NCBI GenBank assembly: GCA_008636095.1
Contig: VSJD01000220.1
Span: 1-17,030 of the forward strand
DNA: 17,030 bases
Reading direction: 5' to 3'
Source: Kiritimatiellota bacterium
Lineage (GTDB): Bacteria > Verrucomicrobiota > Kiritimatiellia > JAAZAB01
Of this stretch, positions 4,898 through 13,937 are shown piece after piece. Position 1 is the stretch's first letter; every line of letters starts with the position of its first letter. The notes beneath the pieces were generated by a model. That model ran no database searches, had not been told where the DNA came from, and saw nothing but the letters and a program-made list of their open reading frames with translations. The translations under genes and the position numbers were made by a program.

Positions 4898-4907
4898 AGT
4901 TAGTCCG

Positions 4908-4942
4908 GAGATTTCACGGTCAAAGATTTTCCGTGAAATCTC
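4908..4942. repeat. Perfect 12-bp inverted repeat upstream of tRNA-Arg
   Basis: Arms GAGATTTCACGG (4908-4919) and CCGTGAAATCTC (4931-4942) are exact reverse complements around an 11-base loop. It lies 11 bases from the 5' end of the tRNA, where its promoter or leader should be. No T-run follows on either strand, so it does not look like a terminator. It may be a pre-tRNA leader hairpin, an operator or a mobile-element remnant. Confidence 0.7.
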
Positions 4943-4948
4943 AGTAGT

Positions 4949-5025
4949 CAGAATACAGAATACAGAATCCAGAATCCAGCACGAAATGCCCATGCGGCTT
5001 TCCTCATTCTGAATTCTGATTCCTG
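4949..5025. repeat. Heptamer repeat array, CAGAATM type, two facing arms
   Basis: Four head-to-tail heptamers (CAGAATA twice, then CAGAATC twice, then CAG) fill 4949-4979. After a 25-base spacer, the opposite orientation follows at 5006-5025 (ATTCTGA twice, then TTCCTG). The arms are roughly complementary. On the minus strand the units read TATTCTG, which resembles a -10 box and could matter for the tRNA. The rest of the 411-base gap 4671-5081 holds nothing else recognisable apart from the tRNA, its terminator, the hairpin and the mutS promoter. Confidence 0.85.
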
Positions 5026-5067
5026 TAGTTATTTGTTTTCTTTGCTTTTTTTTCACCGCACTTCCCC

Positions 5068-5073
5068 TATAGT
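5068..5073 (+). promoter_or_regulatory. Candidate -10 box of mutS (possible leaderless start)
   Basis: TATAGT lies 8 bases before the mutS ATG, so transcription would begin at or within a few bases of the start codon. There is no Shine-Dalgarno sequence upstream; the preceding bases are GCCTCC. The nearest -35-like hexamer, TTGCTT at 5042-5047, is 20 bases away, which is longer than ideal. Confidence 0.4.
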
Positions 5074-5081
5074 ATGCCTCC

Positions 5082-7640
5082 ATGAGCGACCCCATTACCC
5101 CCATGATGAGCCAGTACCGGCGGATCAAAGCCGAATTGCCGCCCGGCACGATTCTCTTTTTCCGGCTGGGCGATTTCTATGAAATGTTTTTTGAGGATGC
5201 CGTTGAGGCCTCGCGGATTCTAGATATCGCACTCACCAAGCGCCAGAAAGTGCCCATGTGCGGAGTGCCGCATCATACCTATGAGACTTACCTGGCGCGG
5301 CTAATCCGCGCCGGCAAAAAAGTGGCCATCTGTGACCAGGTCGAAGACCCCGCCACCGCCCAGGGGATCGTCCGGCGCGAAGTGACCGGCATTCTGACTC
5401 CCGGCGCCGTACTTACGGATCAAATCCTCGACCGTAATCGCAACAATTACCTCGCCGGTCTTTATGAAACCGGTGGTCTCTTTGGCCTGGCCCTGCTGGA
5501 TCTCTCCACGGGCGCATTCCAGGCAGAAGAAACTTCCGATCCGGAGACGCTCCGCGACAGCCTTCTCCGGCTCACGCCCACCGAATGCGTCTTGCCCGCC
5601 GAAGCCTCCCGCGATCCGGCCTCGTCCTTGCGAGCATTGTTGAATCAACTACCGGCGCTCATGGTGAGTCCGTACGACGATTGGACCTTCGAATACGAAA
5701 CGGCCCACGATACGCTCTTGCACCACTTTAAGGTGCAATCCCTGGAGTGTTTCGGCGGCGAGGGTCATCCGGCTATCATTGGCGCGGCCGGCGGCATGGT
5801 GCATTACGTCAGCAATGCGTTGCGCCGCAACCTGGCGCATGTCCAGCGTCTGTGCATCCGGAACCCCGGCGATTTTCTGATCATGGACGAGGCCACGCGA
5901 AGCAACCTGGACCTGGTCGCTTCCCGGAGTTTGCCTTCGGTGTCCTTGCCCGGCGGCTCCGGCCGTAGCGACGGCGACGGCCGTAGCGACGGCACAGCCA
6001 CGACACTTCTGGGCGTGCTGGACAGCACTAAGACCCCCATGGGCGGTCGGCTCCTGCGCGAATGGGTCCTGCGTCCTTTGACCCGGCTCGAAGCCATTAA
6101 GGACCGCCACGACGCCGTCGAAGCCTTTTGTAAAACCCGGACGCTTCTGCGCGATTTGCGCGAGGCCCTGGAGCAAGTGCGCGACATGGAACGCATTATG
6201 GCGCGCCTGGGTGCCGGCACCGGGAATGCCCGGGACATCCGCGCATTGACGCAATCCCTGGCCATATTGCCGACCGCACGCGCGCTCGTGGCCGATTCCC
6301 CGGTTCGCTCCCTGGCCGCTTTGGCACAAACGATTTTGCCCCAACCTGAGCTGGTGGAACTGGTGGAAAAAGCCATTGTTGATGAGCCGCCGATTAGTAT
6401 TAAAGAAGGGGGCCTGATCCGGCACGGCTACCACGCCGAACTGGATACCCTGCGCGACGCCGCCACACAGGGCCGCAACTGGCTGGCCGAGTATCAGGCC
6501 AGGGAACAACAGCGCACCGGTATCAAGACGCTCAAGGTTCGGCATAATAAAATATTCGGCTACTACATCGAGGTTTCCAAGGGCCAGTCCGCCAACGTAC
6601 CGGCCGATTACGCCCGCAAACAGACCCTGGTCAACGCCGAGCGCTTCATCACACCCGAACTGAAAACCTACGAGACAAAAATTTTCGGCGCCCAGGACCA
6701 CGCCATGGCGCTGGAATATGATCTCTTCCTGGAAGTCCGTGACACCCTTGTGCGGGCCACGGAATCCATCCAAGCCTCGGCCCAAGCCCTGGCTCAGTTA
6801 GATGTCCTGGCGGCGCTGGCGGATCGGGCCCTGGCCCTGCGCTACACACGGCCGGTTATGATCCAGACCTCGGCTTTAACCATCCGGGACGGTCGCCATC
6901 CGGTGGTTGAGCAAATGCCCGGCGCGGACCGCTTTGTACCCAACGACACCCTGCTCGATGGCGGTGAAAACCGGGTGATTATCATCACCGGCCCAAACAT
7001 GGCCGGCAAATCCACATATATTCGCCAAGTCGCCCTGATCGTGATCATGGCGCAAATGGGTTCGTTTGTGCCGGCACTCTCCGCCGAAATCGGCATTGTG
7101 GACCGGGTCTTTACCCGCGTGGGCGCCAGTGACGACCTGGCACGCGGGCGCAGTACTTTTATGGTGGAAATGCAGGAAACCGCCAACATCCTGAACAACG
7201 CCACGTCCAATAGTCTCATCGTGCTCGACGAGATTGGCCGCGGGACAAGTACCTTTGACGGCATCAGCATTGCCTGGGCCGTGGCCGAACACTTACATAA
7301 CGCGGTCAAGGCCAAAACCCTGTTTGCCACGCATTTCCACGAACTTACCGATCTGGCCATGACCATGCACGGCGTAAAAAACTATAACGTGCTCGTCCGC
7401 GAACAGGCTGATGGCGTCATTTTCATCCGCAAGATTGTGCCCGGGGGTACCGACAAGAGCTACGGAATTCAAGTGGCCCGCCTGGCCGGCCTGCCTCAGG
7501 AAGTTGTGGACCGTGCCCGGGAAATTCTGCTCAACCTGGAAGATGGTGAATTTGGCGAAGCCGGCCAGCCAAAACTGGCGCTCCACCGCCCGCGCAAAGG
7601 TAAAAACCACCCCGGCCAGATGGCGCTGTTTGAGGTCTGA
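5082..7640 (+). CDS. mutS: DNA mismatch repair protein MutS
   Basis: A cytoplasmic ATPase that recognises base mismatches and small loops and starts methyl- or nick-directed repair with MutL. The 852 residues align from the start (TPMM.QY) with well-known MutS proteins. The mismatch wedge GDFYEMF is at 30-36 (F32 and E34). Walker A GPNMAGKST is at 637-645, Walker B LIVLDEIGRGTS has D716/E717, and THFHEL follows near 750. The C-terminus ends QMALFEV, with QMALF at 846-850 resembling a beta-clamp-binding motif; the tail after the helix-turn-helix region is shorter than in E. coli. Residues 294-305 or so hold an unusual in-frame repeat (GRSDGD, GRSDGT) between SLPGGS and TATTLLGVLD, where the E. 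coli protein is shorter. The ATG at 5082 is chosen by homology; it has no Shine-Dalgarno sequence. No mutL is visible. The stop codon touches the next repeat array. Confidence 0.98.
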   Translation: MSDPITPMMSQYRRIKAELPPGTILFFRLGDFYEMFFEDAVEASRILDIALTKRQKVPMCGVPHHTYETYLARLIRAGKKVAICDQVEDPATAQGIVRREVTGILTPGAVLTDQILDRNRNNYLAGLYETGGLFGLALLDLSTGAFQAEETSDPETLRDSLLRLTPTECVLPAEASRDPASSLRALLNQLPALMVSPYDDWTFEYETAHDTLLHHFKVQSLECFGGEGHPAIIGAAGGMVHYVSNALRRNLAHVQRLCIRNPGDFLIMDEATRSNLDLVASRSLPSVSLPGGSGRSDGDGRSDGTATTLLGVLDSTKTPMGGRLLREWVLRPLTRLEAIKDRHDAVEAFCKTRTLLRDLREALEQVRDMERIMARLGAGTGNARDIRALTQSLAILPTARALVADSPVRSLAALAQTILPQPELVELVEKAIVDEPPISIKEGGLIRHGYHAELDTLRDAATQGRNWLAEYQAREQQRTGIKTLKVRHNKIFGYYIEVSKGQSANVPADYARKQTLVNAERFITPELKTYETKIFGAQDHAMALEYDLFLEVRDTLVRATESIQASAQALAQLDVLAALADRALALRYTRPVMIQTSALTIRDGRHPVVEQMPGADRFVPNDTLLDGGENRVIIITGPNMAGKSTYIRQVALIVIMAQMGSFVPALSAEIGIVDRVFTRVGASDDLARGRSTFMVEMQETANILNNATSNSLIVLDEIGRGTSTFDGISIAWAVAEHLHNAVKAKTLFATHFHELTDLAMTMHGVKNYNVLVREQADGVIFIRKIVPGGTDKSYGIQVARLAGLPQEVVDRAREILLNLEDGEFGEAGQPKLALHRPRKGKNHPGQMALFEV
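5961..5993 (+). repeat. Two-copy 15-bp repeat inside mutS
   Basis: GGCCGTAGCGACGGC occurs exactly at 5961-5975 and 5979-5993 (18-bp period). Each copy contains GCCGT and ACGGC facing each other around AGCG, a small hairpin. The unit is a multiple of three and keeps the MutS frame, adding Gly/Ser/Asp-rich residues. Confidence 0.85.
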
Positions 7641-7641
7641 T

Positions 7642-7772
7642 GCCAGACGGCAGACCGTGAAGAGGACACCAGACGCCAGATGCCGGACGCCGGACCGGAT
7701 ATCAGAAATCGAATTCTCTGACCTTATCCGTCTGTTCTTGTCTGGCGTCAGGCGTCTGGTATCTGGCGTCAG
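7642..7772. repeat. Heptamer repeat array, RGAYGCC type, two facing arms between convergent genes
   Basis: The left arm (7642-7705) has in-register heptamers such as CCAGACG, CCAGATG and CCGGACG. The right arm (7731-7772) has the reverse orientation (TCTGGCG, TCAGGCG, TCTGGTA). Bases 7669-7691 and 7744-7766 are complementary at 19 of 23 positions. The array fills the whole gap between the mutS stop and the stop of the convergent isomerase gene (7775). It could fold into a long imperfect hairpin in either transcript and serve as a bidirectional terminator; no T-run is present. Confidence 0.88.
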
Positions 7773-7774
7773 TT

Positions 7775-9193
7775 CTACATGCCCGCCTGCGGCGACGCCA
7801 CCTGGAAGCCCAGGTAGCGTTCCAGCGCTTCGCGTACCGGCGCGAGGATATGGCCGCCGGCCACGCTGACGTGGTGACGATGGCCGTTCTGCCCGATATG
7901 CAGGAGTACATCCTGGAGCCCCGGTATTTCCACAACCCCCGCGCACCCGAAAAAGTCCGGGGGAATCGGATCGTTGGTAAAGCGGCCCTGCCCCAGGAAG
8001 AATTTCAACCGACCGGCATCGGTGATCATGCTCCCGAACGTACAGTCACCCGGTGCGATGCGGCCGGTGTTACAGCCAAATCCCTTGCCCTTGCCAATCG
8101 CATTGGCGAGAATCAGGTGATCGCTGATCGTGCCCTTGCCCTGCATCAGGTCGGCCGGCACCGGGCCGCAATGGAAGAGAATGCACTTGTCCTCATCATC
8201 GGCGTAATTATTGTTCCAATCCAGGCAGGTGGCAGGGCCATCCGAAGCCAGGGCCAGCGCCTGCATGGTAACCGCGTTGCCGATATCCACTTCGCAGGCC
8301 GCCGTAATTCCACGGTTATTGAGTTCGCTCAGCACGACGCAGGGCGATATGCCCATCAGGGATTGCATTTCGGTCCAACAGCGCAAGGCAATAGCATCCA
8401 GCTTGTATGCGGCAATGATCTCGTCGAGCACGACACCCAGGCGGACCAGGTTATCGAATGCCGCTTTGGGGACCTGGTGCCAGCAGGCATAATTCCTTAG
8501 AATAGCCGCCTTGGCCTTGTAGGCCTTGCCGCTTGCCATCGTCTTGCGCATCCGGTCAAAAACTTCCGATAGGTCAAGCGTTTCCATCGTAATGTCGGCT
8601 TTTTGGAGTGCGATTTCATCGACCCGCACGGTCTTGAACGCCGTGGTGCGCGCGCCGATGGCGCCCACGACCATGCCCTTGATGCCATTGACCACACGAC
8701 AGACACGGTCAAAATGTTCCACGTTGGTTTTGAATTCTTCGCTCAGCGGGCTGACGGTATGCGGCTTGAGCGCCGTGAATTTAACATTGCACTGGTAGAA
8801 GACATCCATGATGGAAAACTTGCCGCAAAACGCGTCGCGCCGCAGGGCCGGCGCCATCTTGTCCAGATCGTCAGGATAGGCCTGCACGAGGATCGGTACG
8901 CCGGCCTCTTTCAGCGCGGCCACAGCGCCGGTTTCATCCCCGAAATTGGGCAATGACAGGATCACACCGCCGTATTTCCCCCGGTTGCGCCGCAGGAACT
9001 CGGCATAGATTTCCCCTTCCCGCGGCGTTTCCACCGCACCGTGCCGGGTAGCAGCTTTATCCAGCAGGATGGAATCGTGTCCCATGCTTTTCAGCACGCG
9101 CGGCAAATCACGCCGGGCACCGTCCATCAGCGAAGCGGGGAAAAATCCGCGGTTTCCGAAATACAAGGCAAACGTGGTTTTAGGCGCCGTCAT
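7775..9193 (-). CDS. L-fucose/L-arabinose isomerase family protein
   Basis: A 472-residue cytoplasmic protein resembling the L-fucose isomerase C-terminal domain family, whose known members interconvert aldoses and ketoses with a divalent metal. It is shorter than FucI (about 590) and nearer in length to L-arabinose isomerase. The N-terminal half has a Rossmann-like pattern (GVILSLPNFGDETGAV, VPILVQAYPDD). The C-terminal half shows RCWTEMQ (E275), AACEVDIGNAVTM (E301, D303) and a His-rich NGHRHHVSV near 436-444, the likely metal and substrate ligands. An AGGAGG five bases before the ATG fixes the start. A TTGACA with TATTAT-like bases lies upstream on the minus strand near 9238-9268, but the spacing is poor. 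The exact sugar cannot be told; D-arabinose, L-fucose or another deoxysugar are options. The stop lies 2 bases from a heptamer array. Confidence 0.85.
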   Translation of the reverse strand: MTAPKTTFALYFGNRGFFPASLMDGARRDLPRVLKSMGHDSILLDKAATRHGAVETPREGEIYAEFLRRNRGKYGGVILSLPNFGDETGAVAALKEAGVPILVQAYPDDLDKMAPALRRDAFCGKFSIMDVFYQCNVKFTALKPHTVSPLSEEFKTNVEHFDRVCRVVNGIKGMVVGAIGARTTAFKTVRVDEIALQKADITMETLDLSEVFDRMRKTMASGKAYKAKAAILRNYACWHQVPKAAFDNLVRLGVVLDEIIAAYKLDAIALRCWTEMQSLMGISPCVVLSELNNRGITAACEVDIGNAVTMQALALASDGPATCLDWNNNYADDEDKCILFHCGPVPADLMQGKGTISDHLILANAIGKGKGFGCNTGRIAPGDCTFGSMITDAGRLKFFLGQGRFTNDPIPPDFFGCAGVVEIPGLQDVLLHIGQNGHRHHVSVAGGHILAPVREALERYLGFQVASPQAGM

Positions 9194-9265
9194 GTGGTCC
9201 TCCTGGTTGTTTGCAAGCTACGGACAAGAAAATACTTCATCAGCATAATACCGTCGCCTCCTGTG

Positions 9266-10126
9266 TCAATGGCAAAACGACCCCAGCTGGCCCGTCAGAA
9301 ACGCGTCCAGCGCCTGACAATAGGCCGGCGAAGTCAGCGCTTCGCCTTCGTTATGATCGCCGGTTAATTCAAAAAATGTTTTCGGCTCGTGAGCGGCGGC
9401 AAACAAACGTTGGCCTTGCTCGAACGGGATCATTTCGTCGTCCCGGCTGTGCGCGATGAGCACCGGGCAGTGGATCTGCTCCAGCCGCGCAAGGGTGTTG
9501 TAACGGTATCTGCTCAGCAGGCGGATCGGCAGCCAGGGATAAAGCCGCGCGCCCATATCCGGGATCGAGGTAAAAGTGGCCTCCAAAATCAGCGCGGCGG
9601 GTGTGATCCGCTCGACCAGGCCGGCTGCCACGGCACCACCCAGTGATCGGCCGAAGACGACGATTTTATCCGGTGGTGTGTTACGTTTCTCGGTCAGGTA
9701 CTGCCAGGCCGCGCGCGCGTCCTGGTAGGTACCCTCTTCCGAGGGTTTGCCGGTACTTTCGCCATATCCGCGATAGTCGAAAACCAGCACATTGAGGCCC
9801 AGCCCGTGGAAAAGGCTGATCGGATGCAGGCGGTCGCCGATATTGCCGCCGTTGCCGTGGCACATGAGCACCGTACCGCGGGCCCCCTCGCAGGGCACAT
9901 ACCAGCCGGCCAGCCGCGTATCGTCGGCCGTCATTAGAGCAACGGATTCATACGCAAGACCGACATCCGACGGCTTTTGCATGACCGGGACCAGTGGAAA
10001 ATAAACCATGTGGGACTGGCGGAAAAAGAGCAGGATGCATAAGCCGACATAAACAGCCGCCACGATTTTTAAGACCGAAAGAGCGATTCTGATGACATCG
10101 GACATATTCATGGATCGCACTCTCAT
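9266..10126 (-). CDS. Membrane-anchored alpha/beta hydrolase, BEM46/YfhR-like
   Basis: A serine hydrolase of 286 residues. Residues 12-35 or so form one hydrophobic N-terminal helix (IRIALSVLKIVAAVYVGLCILLFF), so the protein is probably anchored in the cytoplasmic membrane; the side facing the medium is unknown. The fold markers are CHGNGGN near 89-95 (oxyanion region), the nucleophile elbow GRSLGG with S161, D230 in HSRDDEMIP and H258 in GDHNEG. This is the arrangement of BEM46/ABHD13/ABHD17-like proteins, some of which are depalmitoylases or esterases; the substrate is unknown here. The start is uncertain: ATGs at 10126, 10111 and 10105 are in frame and none has a clear Shine-Dalgarno sequence. 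The longest is given. It lies 72 bases upstream of the isomerase gene and may be co-transcribed with it. Confidence 0.85.
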   Translation of the reverse strand: MRVRSMNMSDVIRIALSVLKIVAAVYVGLCILLFFRQSHMVYFPLVPVMQKPSDVGLAYESVALMTADDTRLAGWYVPCEGARGTVLMCHGNGGNIGDRLHPISLFHGLGLNVLVFDYRGYGESTGKPSEEGTYQDARAAWQYLTEKRNTPPDKIVVFGRSLGGAVAAGLVERITPAALILEATFTSIPDMGARLYPWLPIRLLSRYRYNTLARLEQIHCPVLIAHSRDDEMIPFEQGQRLFAAAHEPKTFFELTGDHNEGEALTSPAYCQALDAFLTGQLGSFCH

Positions 10127-10159
10127 TCCCGGATGGATTTATGTGTGAATTCCGGATGC

Positions 10160-10306
10160 CACAGCCCACGGCCTACAGCCCTCTTAGTCCGCCTTCTGTC
10201 GTCCGTTGTCGGACATTCGACGTTCGGCGTTGGATGTTGGGCGTTCGACGTTTGCTTCGTTCTCTCGTCCTCCGTCATCCGCCGTCCGTCATCCGTCTGT
10301 CCGTCC
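10160..10306. repeat. Heptamer repeat array, mixed types, overlapping the exonuclease 3' end
   Basis: Three blocks of head-to-tail heptamers are visible: CACAGCC, CACGGCC, TACAGCC (10160-10180); five TTSGRYG units (10216-10250, e.g. TTCGACG, TTGGGCG); and CCGTCAT, CCGCCGT, CCGTCAT, CCGTCTG, TCCGTCC (10272-10306). The last block contains the stop codon of the minus-strand exonuclease gene (10275-10277). Apart from these units, the gap 10127-10274 shows nothing recognisable. Confidence 0.85.
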
Positions 10307-11093
10307 CAGCGGGCGGCGTCAGGAAGCGGCCTTCCAGCGCATCGGCAACGATGCGTTTGGTGTCCGCCGGAAAATCACTTTTCAGGATCCACATTAGAAA
10401 CTTGGGATTATCCCGCACGAGGTCTTTGAGTTTTCGGCCGATATTTTGCACGCCGAAATTGATGAGTATTTCGCTGTCCTGCCACTTTAGTTTACCCGTG
10501 CGATCGGCCCAGGCCGGATTGCGCGGCGGATTGCAATACTTGTCCAATTCGTCCAGGGAACGCGGCAGGTCGGCGTATTTCTGCAACTGCGCCTCGAGAA
10601 CAGCAACCGTGGCCAGGGCATCGGCTTCGGCACCGTGGGCGCCCAGGTGCATTTCGCCGCAATAAAAGGTGAGCGCCGCGGAGAGGTCGCGCGGTTCCTT
10701 CTTGTGATAAATCCGCTGGGCATCCACAATGCGCCGGTTGTCGGGATTAAACTCAACCCCGGCGCGCGCAAACTCCTCGGCAAGCATCGGAATATCAAAA
10801 CGCACGACGCCAAACCCGCCCAGGTCACAGTCCGCCAGAATTTCCAGGATGGCGGCGGCCATCTGCCGGAACGGCGGCGCGTGGGCCACGTCGGCATTGG
10901 TAATATGGTGGATGGCCGTGGTCTCGGCCGGGATGGGAATTTCCGGGTTCACACGGAATACATGCTGTTCGCGCCGGCCATCCGGGAACAGCTTGATAAT
11001 CGCCAGGTCAATGATACGGTCCATCCTGGGGTTGATGCCCGTGGATTCGATATCCAGCACCGCCAGTGGCCGTTCCAGCTTCAAATTGGTCAT
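10275..11093 (-). CDS. DEDDh 3'-5' exonuclease with ExoX-like C-terminal domain
   Basis: A 272-residue nuclease of the DnaQ/RNase T superfamily that would remove nucleotides from 3' ends of DNA or RNA using two metal ions. All motifs are present: Exo I LDIESTG (D14, E16), Exo II RFDIPML (D100) and Exo III HGAEAD (H153, D158). Residues 205-257 (ILINFGVQNIGRKL, NPKFLMWILKSDFP) look like the ExoX-like C-terminal domain found in phage and bacterial exonucleases. The ATG at 11093 is preferred over the upstream in-frame TTG (11114) because AAAAGGG sits just before it and homology starts there. The final ten residues or so (ending RRMTDGG) are encoded by heptamer repeat DNA, so the ancestral C-terminus has probably been replaced or extended. 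Roles in mismatch repair (with nearby MutS) or general turnover are possible. Confidence 0.9.
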   Translation of the reverse strand: MTNLKLERPLAVLDIESTGINPRMDRIIDLAIIKLFPDGRREQHVFRVNPEIPIPAETTAIHHITNADVAHAPPFRQMAAAILEILADCDLGGFGVVRFDIPMLAEEFARAGVEFNPDNRRIVDAQRIYHKKEPRDLSAALTFYCGEMHLGAHGAEADALATVAVLEAQLQKYADLPRSLDELDKYCNPPRNPAWADRTGKLKWQDSEILINFGVQNIGRKLKDLVRDNPKFLMWILKSDFPADTKRIVADALEGRFLTPPAGTDRRMTDGG

Positions 11094-11125
11094 GTCCCTT
11101 TTCCCCTTTCGCAAGTTGCCAGCAT

Positions 11126-11155
11126 ACTATAAAGGAGGGCGGCGCCGCTGTCCAA
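11126..11155 (-). promoter_or_regulatory. Candidate promoter of the exonuclease gene
   Basis: On the minus strand, TATAGT (11131-11126) follows TTGGAC (11155-11150) with an 18-base spacer. The 10-mer TATAGTATGC is identical to that ahead of mutS. The -35 is weak. A leader of about 25 bases with AAGGG would precede the ATG at 11093. Confidence 0.35.
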
Positions 11156-11269
11156 GCCAATCATTGTCAATACACATTATCAATCTACCGTTGACACCTG
11201 GAAAGTAATGTGCAAAATTCTATATATCTGTATGGCATCGGTTGAACATTTTACCCAAGGATTCCAAGC
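11156..11269. promoter_or_regulatory. Divergent AT-rich regulatory region
   Basis: This stretch separates the divergent exonuclease and nucleotidyltransferase genes. It has TGTCAA (11165-11170) and TTGACA (11191-11196), a 6-bp inverted repeat that also reads as a -35 box in both directions. TATATA occurs at 11221-11226, 24 bases from TTGACA, so the canonical spacing is not met. AAGGA at 11257-11261 is the ribosome binding site of the plus-strand gene, 8 bases before its ATG. Confidence 0.35.
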
Positions 11270-12175
11270 ATGAAACCAACCTTAGTCGTCATGGCCGCGG
11301 GCGTGGGCAGTCGGTACGGCGGATTGAAACAGATTGAGCCGGTGGGACCCTCCGGGGAAATCATGCTCGATTATTCGGTGTTCGACGCCATCCGCGCCGG
11401 GTTCGGCAAGGTCGTGTTCATTATCCGGCACGATATTGAAAAGGATTTCAAAGAGGCCATCGGGGCACACTTTGAGGGGCGCATCCAGGTGGATTACGTG
11501 TTTCAGGAGTTGGCTGATTTGCCGGCGGGATTCACCCTGCCGCCGGACCGCACCAAACCCTGGGGCACGGGACATGCCGTTTTGCGTTGTAAGACCTTAG
11601 TCAAAGAACCTTTTGCCGTCATCAATGCCGACGATTTTTACGGCGCCAAGTCATATGACGTGATCGCCCGCTACCTGCAAGCCCTTGCCCCCAATGCCAA
11701 TACTTATGCCATGGTCGGTTTCCAGCTGGTGAATACGCTCTCGGCCCACGGATCGGTCACACGCGGCATCTGCGAGGTGGATGCGCACCACATGCTGAAC
11801 AGCGTCGTGGAACGGTTTAAGATCGAGAAAACGGCTGACGGCGCCCGCTACGAAAATGAGCACAGCCAATGGGTACCGCTCCAAGGCCACGAAATCGCCT
11901 CCATGAACATGTTCGGGTTCACGCCGACTTTGTTCGGGTTCCTCGATGAAAAATTTCCCGTGTTCCTGAAAAAAGCCGCCGGCCACCCCAAGGCCGAGTT
12001 CCTGATGCCGGCCATCGCCGACGAACTGATCCGCGAACGGAAAATCACCATGCGCGTGCTCGAGACACCGGAAAAATGGTTTGGCGTCACCTACAAGGAA
12101 GACAAGCCCTTTGTGACGTCCGGCATTCGCCGGCTGATTGAGAACGGCGTGTATCCGGAAAAGCTGTGGGACTGA
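11270..12175 (+). CDS. Sugar nucleotidyltransferase (NTP_transferase family)
   Basis: A 301-residue GT-A-fold enzyme that should join a sugar-1-phosphate to an NTP to make an NDP-sugar and pyrophosphate. The N-terminal MAAGVGSRYGGLKQ at 8-21 is the nucleotide-binding signature, in the variant with a Tyr and two Gly before Leu-Lys. PWGTGHA at 97-103 and NADDFYG at 119-125 (catalytic and metal-binding Asp) follow. It lacks the C-terminal left-handed helix domain of GlmU/GlgC. The ATG has AAGGA 8 bases upstream. It stands alone and divergent from the exonuclease; no glycosyltransferase or kinase adjoins it, so the sugar and the nucleotide cannot be assigned. The stop (12173-12175) is followed after 4 bases by a heptamer array. 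Confidence 0.88.
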   Translation: MKPTLVVMAAGVGSRYGGLKQIEPVGPSGEIMLDYSVFDAIRAGFGKVVFIIRHDIEKDFKEAIGAHFEGRIQVDYVFQELADLPAGFTLPPDRTKPWGTGHAVLRCKTLVKEPFAVINADDFYGAKSYDVIARYLQALAPNANTYAMVGFQLVNTLSAHGSVTRGICEVDAHHMLNSVVERFKIEKTADGARYENEHSQWVPLQGHEIASMNMFGFTPTLFGFLDEKFPVFLKKAAGHPKAEFLMPAIADELIRERKITMRVLETPEKWFGVTYKEDKPFVTSGIRRLIENGVYPEKLWD

Positions 12176-12179
12176 AGAT

Positions 12180-12355
12180 CGGACGCCGGATACCAGACAC
12201 CAGACGCCGGATGCCAGACATCGGAAAGTAGCCAGCCATCCATCGTCTTCCTCTCTTCTCAGTTGTCTTTCTGATCAGGGCTGTCGTCCGACGTCTGTCG
12301 TCTGGCGTCAGTCTTCTCCGGTCAGCCATCCGGCATCAGGCGTCTGGCGTCCGAC
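12180..12355. repeat. Heptamer repeat array, RGAYGCC type, two facing arms between convergent genes
   Basis: The left arm is seven contiguous heptamers at 12180-12228 (CGGACGC, CGGATAC, CAGACAC and so on). The right arm is ten contiguous units in opposite orientation at 12283-12352, all in one 7-bp register (e.g. GGCGTCA, GGCATCA, GGCGTCT). The outer ends of the arms are complementary at about 19 of 28 positions. The interior (12229-12282) is not clearly repetitive. The right arm crosses the stop codon of the acyl-CoA ligase gene (12336-12338). Confidence 0.9.
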
Positions 12356-13937
12356 TTAGAACGCCCCGTTCGAGTTCGCCGTGCTTGCGCAGTTCGCGCT
12401 TCATGATTTTACCGGCGGCGTTCTTGGGCAGCTCGCTCAGGAAGAAAAATTTGCGGGGCACCTCGTGCCGGCCCAAGCTCGCCAGGCAACAAGTCCGGAG
12501 CTGGGCGACCGTTATCCCGACTCTCTCAGAGGTCGGGACGCCTTCCTTGAGCGCCACATAGGCCACGGGAATCTCGCCGTGCATTTTATGCGGCTCGCCC
12601 ACCACCGCCACCTCACGGACGCCCTCGCACCGGGCAAGCACTTCCTCGATAATGCGCGGGTAAATGTTCATGCCGTTGACAATGATCATATCTTTTTTGC
12701 GATCCACGATGCTGAAATAGCCGTCCGCGTCACGGGTGCCTAAGTCGCCCGTGCGGAACCAGTCGCCGAAAAAAGCCTCCTTAGTTTCCGCCGGCAGTTT
12801 CCAGTAGCCCTTCATTACATTCGGCCCACGCACACAGATTTCCCCAATCGTACCGTCGGGCACGTCCTGGCCCTGCTCGTCCACGATTTTCATTTCGACA
12901 TCCGGCACCGGCAGGCCGACCGTGCCAGACTTAGTCCGTCCACCGATCGGGTTGACGCACGTAACCGGCGAGCACTCGGTCGGTCCATCGCCCTCATAAA
13001 TTTTCTTGCCAAACCGCGTCTCGAACTCGCGCATGACCGCCACCGGCAGGGCGGCGCCGCCGGAGACGCAGAATTTCAGCGTCTCGAAATGGGGCACGAC
13101 GGCGTCCGGCAAACGCAGGAGCGCCACATACATGCTGGGTACGCCCATGAACAAGGTGATCCGCTCGGCCGCGATCATCTTGGCCACATGGAGCGGATCG
13201 AAGCGCGACAGCGGCACCATGGTGCTGCCCGACATGAGCGGCAAAAACATGCACGCCATGGCGGCAAAAGCGTGGAAGAGCGGCAGGATAACCAGGAAAC
13301 GCTCCTCCCCCGGCTGAACCTGCATGGCCTGCAAGGTGCTCCTGATATTGCTCACCAGATTACGGTGGGTCAGCATGGCGCCCTTGGGCCGACCCGTTGT
13401 GCCGGAGGTGTACAAAATAGCGGCCAGGTCTTCTGCCGGATTGAAGGCCACCAGCGGCGTTGGCCGCACCACCGGCACCGGCCCTTCCGCCTCCGCGAAT
13501 TCCGCCCACGGAATATCCTGCGGCGGCGGCAGAGCGCCGATGCACACGCAGAATGCCAGGTCCGGCGTTAACGGCCGCAGGGCGTTGACGGCGGGAGCAA
13601 AAACACCATGGTAAAACAAGGCCCGGGCGCCGGCATCATTGAGAATGAACGCGACTTCCTTCGGATTCAGAAGGAGGTTGATCGGCACGACGACCGCGCC
13701 GGCTTTCAGGATGCCGAAATAGGCCAGCGGGAACCAGTCGGAATTGATGCAATAGAGTCCGATGCGGTCGCCTTTCCGAATGCCCCGTCGGGCCAGCGCG
13801 ACGGCCACCCGGTCGCTAATCCGGTCCACAGCGGCAAAATCCAGCGTGCGGCCGTCAAACGTAATAGCGGGTTTACCGGTAAAACGGCGGGCGCAATCTC
13901 TGAACATCTCCGGCAATGAATGGTGTAACAGCTCCAT
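12336..13937 (-). CDS. Long-chain fatty acid-CoA ligase (AMP-binding enzyme)
   Basis: A 533-residue ANL-superfamily enzyme that activates a carboxylic acid to acyl-AMP and then acyl-CoA. The core motifs are intact: the P-loop YTSGTTGRPKGA at 176-187, GDGPTE at 316-321 (in place of the commoner GYGxTE), TGD at 397-399, the hinge VDRKKDMI at 411-418 and catalytic K510 in NAAGKIMKR. The length fits the long-chain acyl-CoA ligase group, but the chain length of the substrate is inferred. No transmembrane segment is clear. The ATG has GGAG 9 bases upstream. The last six residues (SRTPDA) and the stop are encoded by heptamer repeat DNA. It lies 101 bases downstream of the esterase gene, a distance that leaves co-transcription open. 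Confidence 0.92.
   Translation of the reverse strand: MELLHHSLPEMFRDCARRFTGKPAITFDGRTLDFAAVDRISDRVAVALARRGIRKGDRIGLYCINSDWFPLAYFGILKAGAVVVPINLLLNPKEVAFILNDAGARALFYHGVFAPAVNALRPLTPDLAFCVCIGALPPPQDIPWAEFAEAEGPVPVVRPTPLVAFNPAEDLAAILYTSGTTGRPKGAMLTHRNLVSNIRSTLQAMQVQPGEERFLVILPLFHAFAAMACMFLPLMSGSTMVPLSRFDPLHVAKMIAAERITLFMGVPSMYVALLRLPDAVVPHFETLKFCVSGGAALPVAVMREFETRFGKKIYEGDGPTECSPVTCVNPIGGRTKSGTVGLPVPDVEMKIVDEQGQDVPDGTIGEICVRGPNVMKGYWKLPAETKEAFFGDWFRTGDLGTRDADGYFSIVDRKKDMIIVNGMNIYPRIIEEVLARCEGVREVAVVGEPHKMHGEIPVAYVALKEGVPTSERVGITVAQLRTCCLASLGRHEVPRKFFFLSELPKNAAGKIMKRELRKHGELERGVLSRTPDA

Follow-up and report, generated by a model that had tools for sequence, protein, structure and literature searches.

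This study asked what fills four gaps, between protein or tRNA genes, in a 17,030-bp stretch of DNA (the window) from a Kiritimatiellota bacterium, where degenerate 7-bp units follow one another in tandem arrays. The window is one contig of a 3.8-Mb, 357-contig assembly (G000, the own genome), and was compared with sister species of the genus (G001, G002, G003, and G004); its MutS is closest to those of Verrucomicrobia/Kiritimatiellia metagenome-assembled genomes (MAGs). The arrays are very probably the ends, or arms, of small elements carrying a gene of the S23/four-helix-bundle protein family (PF05635), ends that have often been left behind alone. The original prediction attributed them to an active repeat-generating process. 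This is not the best account, because array polarity, recurrent boundaries, inverted pairing, an enclosed conserved gene, and the presence or absence of whole units between species together point to the ends of a dispersed element.

Lag-7 identity in the four gaps was 0.44-0.52, against 0.25-0.27 in dinucleotide shuffles (z 5.1-7.4), and none of 1000 shuffles reached it. Over the exact spans first described (4949-5025, 7642-7772, 10160-10306, and 12180-12355) it rose to 0.51-0.64, with shuffles up to 0.29 and z up to 8.4, and six further gaps that were tested gave no lag-7 signal (z -1.8 to 1.2). The claim that the gaps are built of 7-bp repeats, and of degenerate ones, was therefore correct. 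Their predicted genome-wide occurrence was also confirmed: a scan of 442,792 bp of the own genome, counting segments with a score of at least 14, gave 48 at lag 7 against 1 in a single shuffled set, 0-7 at each of the other lags from 2 to 13, and 29, 10, 13, and 18 at lags 14, 15, 18, and 21. Sister species had 47 segments in 159 kb (G004), 17 in 60 kb (G001), 12 in 137 kb (G003), and 3 in 9 kb (G002), densities that are biased because part of these stretches had been picked for array matches listed earlier; in other genera, 16 of 20 single stretches of 4-20 kb each had no lag-7 segment. Taken together, these counts indicate a real feature, genome-wide in the genus and of patchy occurrence elsewhere.

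Over 1.2 Mb of the genus, after removal of low-complexity segments and of locus L184 (which reads N), 219 lag-7 segments were counted, 141 of them intergenic, though intergenic sequence makes up 18.4% of bases. Confinement to gaps, as first proposed, is thus an enrichment that is not absolute: 63 segments lie more than 80% within genes (as delimited by a crude gene caller), and in the window itself 10275-10306 lies in the 3' end of an exonuclease open reading frame (ORF) and 12336-12355 in an AMP-ligase ORF. The enrichment would arise because insertions survive mainly in gaps. Among the sequences left out as low complexity was a long poly-C run beside N in G003 (L201, 10266-10452), likely an assembly artefact.

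The link to a gene came from the alignment of orthologous gaps between sister species, in which inserts bounded by inverted arrays hold a small ORF. Two of these ORFs match PF05635 (G000:C280, E 8.4e-29; G004:C16, E 9.4e-31), and the protein of the latter also matches TIGR02436, 'four helix bundle protein' (E 6.2e-30), and resembles PDB 2gsc, XCC0516 (E 2.6e-10). A search of the genus gave 40 PF05635 matches, whose flanks, 250 bp on each side, were scored for lag 7 on both sides (at least 10) or for an ungapped inverted match (at least 12). This flank test was passed by 29 of the 40 loci, 24 of them on both criteria; among 250 control genes taken from those contigs, 14 passed (11 by both-sided lag 7, 3 by inversion), and none did so on both (Fisher P = 1.5e-20 for either criterion). 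When 200-bp windows were used, both-sided lag 7 was found at 19 of 30 S23 loci and inversion at 22 of 30, against 6 and 1 of 250 controls. Inverted terminal repeats were present in three of the four gaps of the window and at 29 of the 40 genus loci.

These counts also bear on whether S23 is just a passenger, landing preferentially in gaps that are already repetitive, with arrays of some other origin. Such a history would accommodate the 14 ordinary genes that lie between arrays by the looser test and the many inverted array pairs that enclose no S23 gene (24 of 27, see below). It is nevertheless improbable, since no ordinary gene had both features that 24 of the 40 S23 loci have. Moreover, S23 proteins more than 80% identical keep their unit (similarity 0.70), unrelated S23 proteins in one gap (L315 versus L358) have different units, and the same layout is found on cyanobacterial plasmids, which have fewer arrays (8 segments in 100 kb).

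The arrays of the window most likely represent either solo ends of such S23 elements or copies without an ORF. Their parts are listed below; brackets give the best match of each of eight window stretches to the flanks of genus S23 loci, with the maximum of 20 shuffles as control.

4941-4979, plus strand: left arm, a lag-7 segment of about five units of CAGAAT plus one variable base (4945-4985: arms of S23 element L315/L319, score 20, shuffle maximum 14).
5006-5025, minus strand: right arm, inverted partner of 4941-4979 (4995-5030: L315 arm, 15, shuffle maximum 13).
7642-7695, plus strand: left arm of GACRCCR-type units (CRGA class) with embedded linker CCGTGAAGAG, beginning 1 nt past the mutS stop codon (7655-7700: L312 arm including TGAAGAG, 21, shuffle maximum 14).
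7740-7772, minus strand: right arm, inverted partner of 7642-7695, stopping 2 nt short of a convergent L-fucose isomerase-like gene (7735-7774: L312 arm, 18, shuffle maximum 14).
10159-10180, no strand assigned: short CTACAGC-type heptamer stretch recognized by eye, 14 bp of which are missing in G004.
10188-10213, minus strand: CRGA-class heptamers adjoining the solo arm, within the lag-7 segment 10188-10297.
10214-10257, minus strand: solo arm AAGCA-(AACRYCS)n-AATG with both outer boundaries (a 44-bp match to the own-genome S23 element L357, 32, shuffle maximum 15).
10266-10306, minus strand: CRGA-class heptamers, overlapping the end of the exonuclease ORF from 10275 (10262-10310: L299 arm, 22, shuffle maximum 19).
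12180-12218, plus strand: left arm of GACGCCR type, beginning 4 nt past the nucleotidyltransferase stop (12180-12225: L299/L312, 18, below the shuffle maximum of 19).
12281-12355, minus strand: right arm, a composite of CRGA sub-arrays with linker GACCGGAGAAGA, overlapping the AMP-ligase ORF from 12336 (12278-12358: L299 arm, 32, shuffle maximum 19).

Seven of the eight stretches score above the shuffle maximum. The CRGA stretches fit L299, L307, or L312 best, 10195-10262 fits L357/L363 including both boundaries (32 versus 15), and two of these elements, L357 and L299, belong to the window's own genome. In three of the four gaps a unit lies directly behind one gene and its reverse complement directly ahead of the other, and the fourth, 10160-10306, is a composite on one strand; the description of the arrays as head-to-tail therefore holds for their 7-bp units and misses the inverted pairing. 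Short length, inverted ends, the lack of an ORF, and ends shared with an ORF-bearing element (the last in seven of eight arm tests) are traits of miniature inverted-repeat transposable elements (MITEs), and the window would accordingly hold three MITE-like, ORF-less pairs (4941-5025, 7642-7772, 12180-12355) and, within the composite 10159-10306, a solo arm. An arm-based scan of the 1.2 Mb gave 27 inverted pairs; 19 of these have less than 150 bp between their arms and no S23 gene there. Three of the four pairs spaced 300-480 bp enclose one, and these are all the S23 ORFs of that sample, although the three were already known beforehand and were part of the search model used.

Some further features of the window may be recorded here. 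At 4898-5030, a tRNA-Arg/mutS stretch common to G004 and G003 is replaced by the array and a GGAGATTTCACGG hairpin; by eye, the replaced stretch looks promoter-like for the tRNA. Around 7641-7774, mutS and the fucose-isomerase-like gene are adjacent, and lie 9.5 kb apart in G004, 1.3 kb in G003, and 1.5 kb in G001, differences that represent gene loss or gain at an array. At the contig end (16739-17027), a 135-bp repeat present in about two copies codes on the minus strand, and a search for known RNA families matched only the tRNA.

The array units of the genus fall into many motif families (219 segments), and within a family polarity was constant in 20 of 20 adjacent opposite pairs from six families: CRGA with 12 pairs, AACNAAG with 3, AATCNNM with 2, and AACNYCS, AATGG, and AATGNAG with 1 each. 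Three families thus contribute a single pair, both AATCNNM pairs come from contigs in synteny between two species, and one of the 20 pairs (L192) encloses an S23 gene. For five of the families (CRGA, AACNYCS, AATGG, AACNAAG, and AATGNAG) the polarity of the pairs is that of the S23-bearing elements. The side of the gap alone gives a strong but incomplete bias (CRGA 57 versus 15; AATCNNM 15 versus 2). The AACRYCS family has, in addition, recurrent outer boundaries in most of its 24 genus copies, with AGCA before and AAT after the array (AGCA/AAC...AAT/G, slashes marking the boundaries).

It is these regularities that set the arrays apart from heptanucleotide microsatellites, born by slippage in unconstrained gaps and degraded by point mutation, beside which S23 genes would lie by coincidence. 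Heptamers are over-represented among bacterial simple sequence repeats (SSRs), an idea of slippage related to the polymerase footprint exists (PMC4692102), and long, almost perfect arrays occur here too (e.g., G000 C110 and C283). The head-to-tail, intergenic, multi-copy 7-bp organization of SSRs and of short tandemly repeated repetitive (STRR) sequences is indeed present, but these are not plain direct repeats lacking polarity or partner, all 20 pairs being polar. Slippage predicts neither inverted partners of constant polarity, nor the AACRYCS boundaries, nor an S23 gene between the arms, nor the presence or absence of a whole unit, and it is an unlikely origin for the arrays.

The inverted pairs also fold. 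As single-stranded DNA (ssDNA), the gaps 4949-5025, 7642-7772, and 12180-12355 gave folding z values of -2.8, -5.8, and -3.9, and the one-strand composite 10160-10306 gave -1.15. Strong folding in three gaps, two of which lie between convergent genes, would suit functional hairpins under selection between genes, either bidirectional terminators or stabilizers of mRNA 3' ends, as would the CRGA arms no more than 40 nt from a stop codon, which agree in sense in 37 of 40 cases. The intrinsic-terminator pattern (a GC stem, then a T run) was found in none of the four gaps, however, and its regional count of 8 compares with 8.7 in shuffles. Arrays also occur upstream of starts, the same gap lacks the array in a sister species, and some arms are parted by an S23 ORF, all of which makes selected hairpins quite unlikely as the explanation. 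Dispersed, intergenic, and inverted arrays might likewise be repetitive extragenic palindromes (REPs) mobilized by Y1 (IS200-like) transposases, the REP-associated tyrosine transposases (RAYTs), and REPs are known in the Verrucomicrobia, in O. terrae (PMC3733652). Yet the gene between the arms is PF05635 and not Y1, Y1 matches number two to four per genome with none in G002, and 8 of 10 Y1 loci have no array, so that a REP/RAYT origin is highly improbable.

Comparison of sister species revealed that the arms and the S23 gene make up one unit, which is present at an orthologous gap in some species and absent in others, and which erodes. L302/L303 correspond to a leftover arm in G000, L309 to ORF-less arrays in G001 and G004, L307/L312 to an ORF-less array in G002, and L315, L324/L326, and L359/L362 to short gaps in G003, one of them with a leftover arm. 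In one gap, L315 of G004 and L358 of G000 encode unrelated S23 proteins (29% identical) and have unrelated units. The exonuclease-side array of the window is about 100 bp longer than its G004 counterpart, and in the 12180-12355 gap G004 and G002 share the arm ends but not the centre. A comparison of this kind had been proposed between close strains, with a change in copy number as the expected outcome; made across sister species, it showed whole units present or absent, and slippage may still alter copy number within an arm. The S23 protein is under purifying selection, with dN/dS values of 0.04-0.15 in 11 of 12 pairs of coding sequences and saturated dS in the twelfth (stop codons skipped). 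As a side observation, L185 and L190, in the nucleotidyltransferase/AMP-ligase gap, have a palindromic GAAGCCTTGGCGAAGGCGGGA-type repeat between the conserved arms, which visual inspection also revealed in several further gaps of the genus.

A number of results weigh against reading the arrays as arms of S23 elements. The four arrays of the window have no S23 ORF, which the same arm families hold in other copies, one window stretch (12180-12225) does not exceed its shuffle maximum (18 versus 19), and 24 of the 27 inverted pairs have no S23 gene, so that ORF-less copies are tied to S23 elements by their arms only. The AATCNNM family has both polarities at S23 loci, L320/L323 agreeing with the pairs and L358 being opposite. 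By the flank test, 11 of the 40 genus loci have no arms: L313, L317, and L318 adjoin a Cas4-like ORF (by eye), four are among the matches below the family cut-off (the low-scoring group L325, L360, L361, L364, and L365), and L297, L298, L301, and L306 have weak or irregular repeats. That 14 of 250 ordinary genes pass the looser criterion reflects how common array-rich gaps are in the genus. Seven of 29 loci in named MAGs fail the test, including both from Omnitrophota. Four comparisons of filled and empty sites revealed no target-site duplication, and the search for a transposase was confined to the Y1 family. Among proteins less than 60% identical, the type of unit does not follow how similar the proteins are (rho 0.115, against a highest value of 0.151 in 300 permutations). 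A strict code between protein and unit is also opposed by units that drift faster than proteins, and by arms made of 8-mers or 9-mers (6 and 4 of 76 two-armed loci).

The arrangement is not restricted to the genus. PF05635 matches occur in 297 of 387 Verrucomicrobiota genomes. The AACRYCS pattern, derived from the genus, was found in 53 of the 387 (its backward control was non-zero in four), and all 53 have PF05635, against 244 of the 334 without the array (Fisher P = 3e-7, by hand tally). In other Verrucomicrobiota, 32 of 40 PF05635 loci, 30 of them from the top-scoring matches and 10 from lower down the list, pass the flank test, against 2 of 125 control genes of the class. Among named MAGs, mostly of other phyla, 22 of 29 loci pass (a thirtieth had too short a flank to test), and these come from Desulfobacteraceae and other 'Deltaproteobacteria', Firestonebacteria, and one unplaced bacterium. 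A tblastn search with one S23 protein against 72,556 plasmids gave 26 records, mostly from Nostoc, Calothrix, Anabaena, Trichormus, and their relatives. All 25 testable loci pass, the 26th match lying at the very start of its record; the number of independent plasmids is nearer 20, because some records are near-identical (three Riemerella, two Trichormus, and two Calothrix brevissima). Two of these plasmids supplied control coding sequences, of which 2 of 77 pass, the 77 being what remained of 96 annotated features after exclusion of S23 genes, their neighbours, end-cut features, and some small ones. At three of the plasmid loci (L408, L415, and L420), all with arms, the PF05635 gene adjoins cas6/cas4 or cas10/cmr3.

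Seven is the predominant period throughout. Of 108 loci in total, 81 had a summed score of at least 20, and their best period was 7 in 67, 9 in 8, and 8 in 6; where both arms are periodic (76 loci), it was 7 in 66, 8 in 6, and 9 in 4, and 7-mer arms had a median of 4.9 units. Arms of 9-mers (e.g., CTAAAGTGN) were seen on the S23 elements L378, L394, L395, L396, and L402, from Desulfobacteraceae/Deltaproteobacteria and Firestonebacteria MAGs. Arrays of 9 bp (GTCCGACAA type and others), mainly one-sided, lie beside PF05635 matches below the cut-off at L361, L364, L398, and L399.

A full element measures about 0.45-0.53 kb, with inverted arms of some 4-6 degenerate tandem heptamers each around a single gene of about 120-130 codons, encoding a PF05635/TIGR02436 protein of the S23p family ('23S rRNA-intervening sequence protein'). 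Such elements presumably move, and ORF-less pairs and solo arms may derive from internal deletion or cross-mobilization. The 7-nt phase could exist because an oligomeric S23 protein binds the tandem array, plausibly with one unit per subunit. TRAP, which reads spaced triplets, offers a likeness for this mode of recognition. The S23p structure of X. campestris is reported as a homopentamer (PMC4990558), and PF05635 resembles Avd, a protein of diversity-generating retroelements (DGRs) (PMC10053308). The order of unit variants agreed from arm to arm above unit shuffles in 20 of 76 elements (P<=0.05), so that pairing or copying between arms is supported in a subset only. Heptamer addition at break ends had also been considered as a source of the arrays, and was dropped after S23 genes were found between the arms.

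Two old puzzles, the role of S23 genes and the reason why many bacteria fill gaps with degenerate heptamers, may then be one. If so, many 'four helix bundle protein' genes could be annotated as mobile elements with predictable arms. A literature search, with subscription journals and preprints outside its scope, found no paper joining S23/four-helix-bundle genes with intergenic heptamer arrays in the text available. A more far-reaching proposal, which we advance tentatively and by analogy, is that intergenic heptamer arrays across bacteria (STRRs, the Geobacter pairs, the Xanthomonas inverted repeats, and those described here) are a single phenomenon, the complete or residual arms of a very large class of minimal S23 elements, with a pentameric four-helix-bundle protein reading about five heptamers on ssDNA or RNA, perhaps with a host or DGR-like reverse transcriptase.

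Cyanobacterial STRRs are tandem heptamers of Nostoc, Calothrix, and Anabaena relatives. The analogy with them, drawn in the original prediction, holds, in that plasmid PF05635 genes of the same group bear heptamer arms of the same kind. Heptanucleotides of Calothrix are mentioned in a study of the GGGAATC and GGGGAYT arrays of Xanthomonas and Nostoc, which are 89-93% intergenic and lie on average 28 nt behind stop codons; in Xanthomonas campestris pv. campestris they form 70 inverted convergent pairs, and the same gap varies between species (PMC4692102). Those heptamers resemble the present arrays in their 7-nt units, intergenic position, closeness to stops, and inverted pairing, but consist of one G-rich unit read as a G-quadruplex, and the portion of the paper examined makes no link to S23 (PMC4692102). 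Class 3 of the 'global regulator sites' of Geobacter metallireducens comprises five tandem heptamers MTYCTGA (reverse complement TCAGRAK) in strand-switching pairs, like the arrays here; these were instead read as possible IHF/HU sites, and the text examined proposes neither an element nor an S23 gene (PMC2700814). The Geobacter pairs and the Xanthomonas and Nostoc arrays resemble the present ones in layout and, in some cases, in the unit itself. The TAACTGA repeats of Beggiatoaceae are likewise intergenic, 7 nt long, and patchy over phyla, but are direct (169 sets, one indirect), lie mostly just upstream of starts, and have been proposed as the site of a translational regulator (PMC4679880).

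The closest parallel is the 23S rRNA intervening sequence (IVS). In C. burnetii the IVS has an S23p-family ORF with tandem heptamers GACAGAT upstream of it, and IVSs have been discussed for their inverted repeats, called selfish elements, and suggested since 1990 to transpose (PMC4990558). The Coxiella GACAGAT belongs to the same CRGA class as arms described here. Unlike the IVS, the elements of this study occupy sites between protein genes, at several per genome; they have an arm on either side, the arms belong to many unit families, and in the sample scanned ORF-less inverted pairs are more numerous than full elements (24 of 27). If they are what they appear to be, the mobility of 23S rRNA intervening sequences, guessed at for decades, could be tested with a defined substrate.

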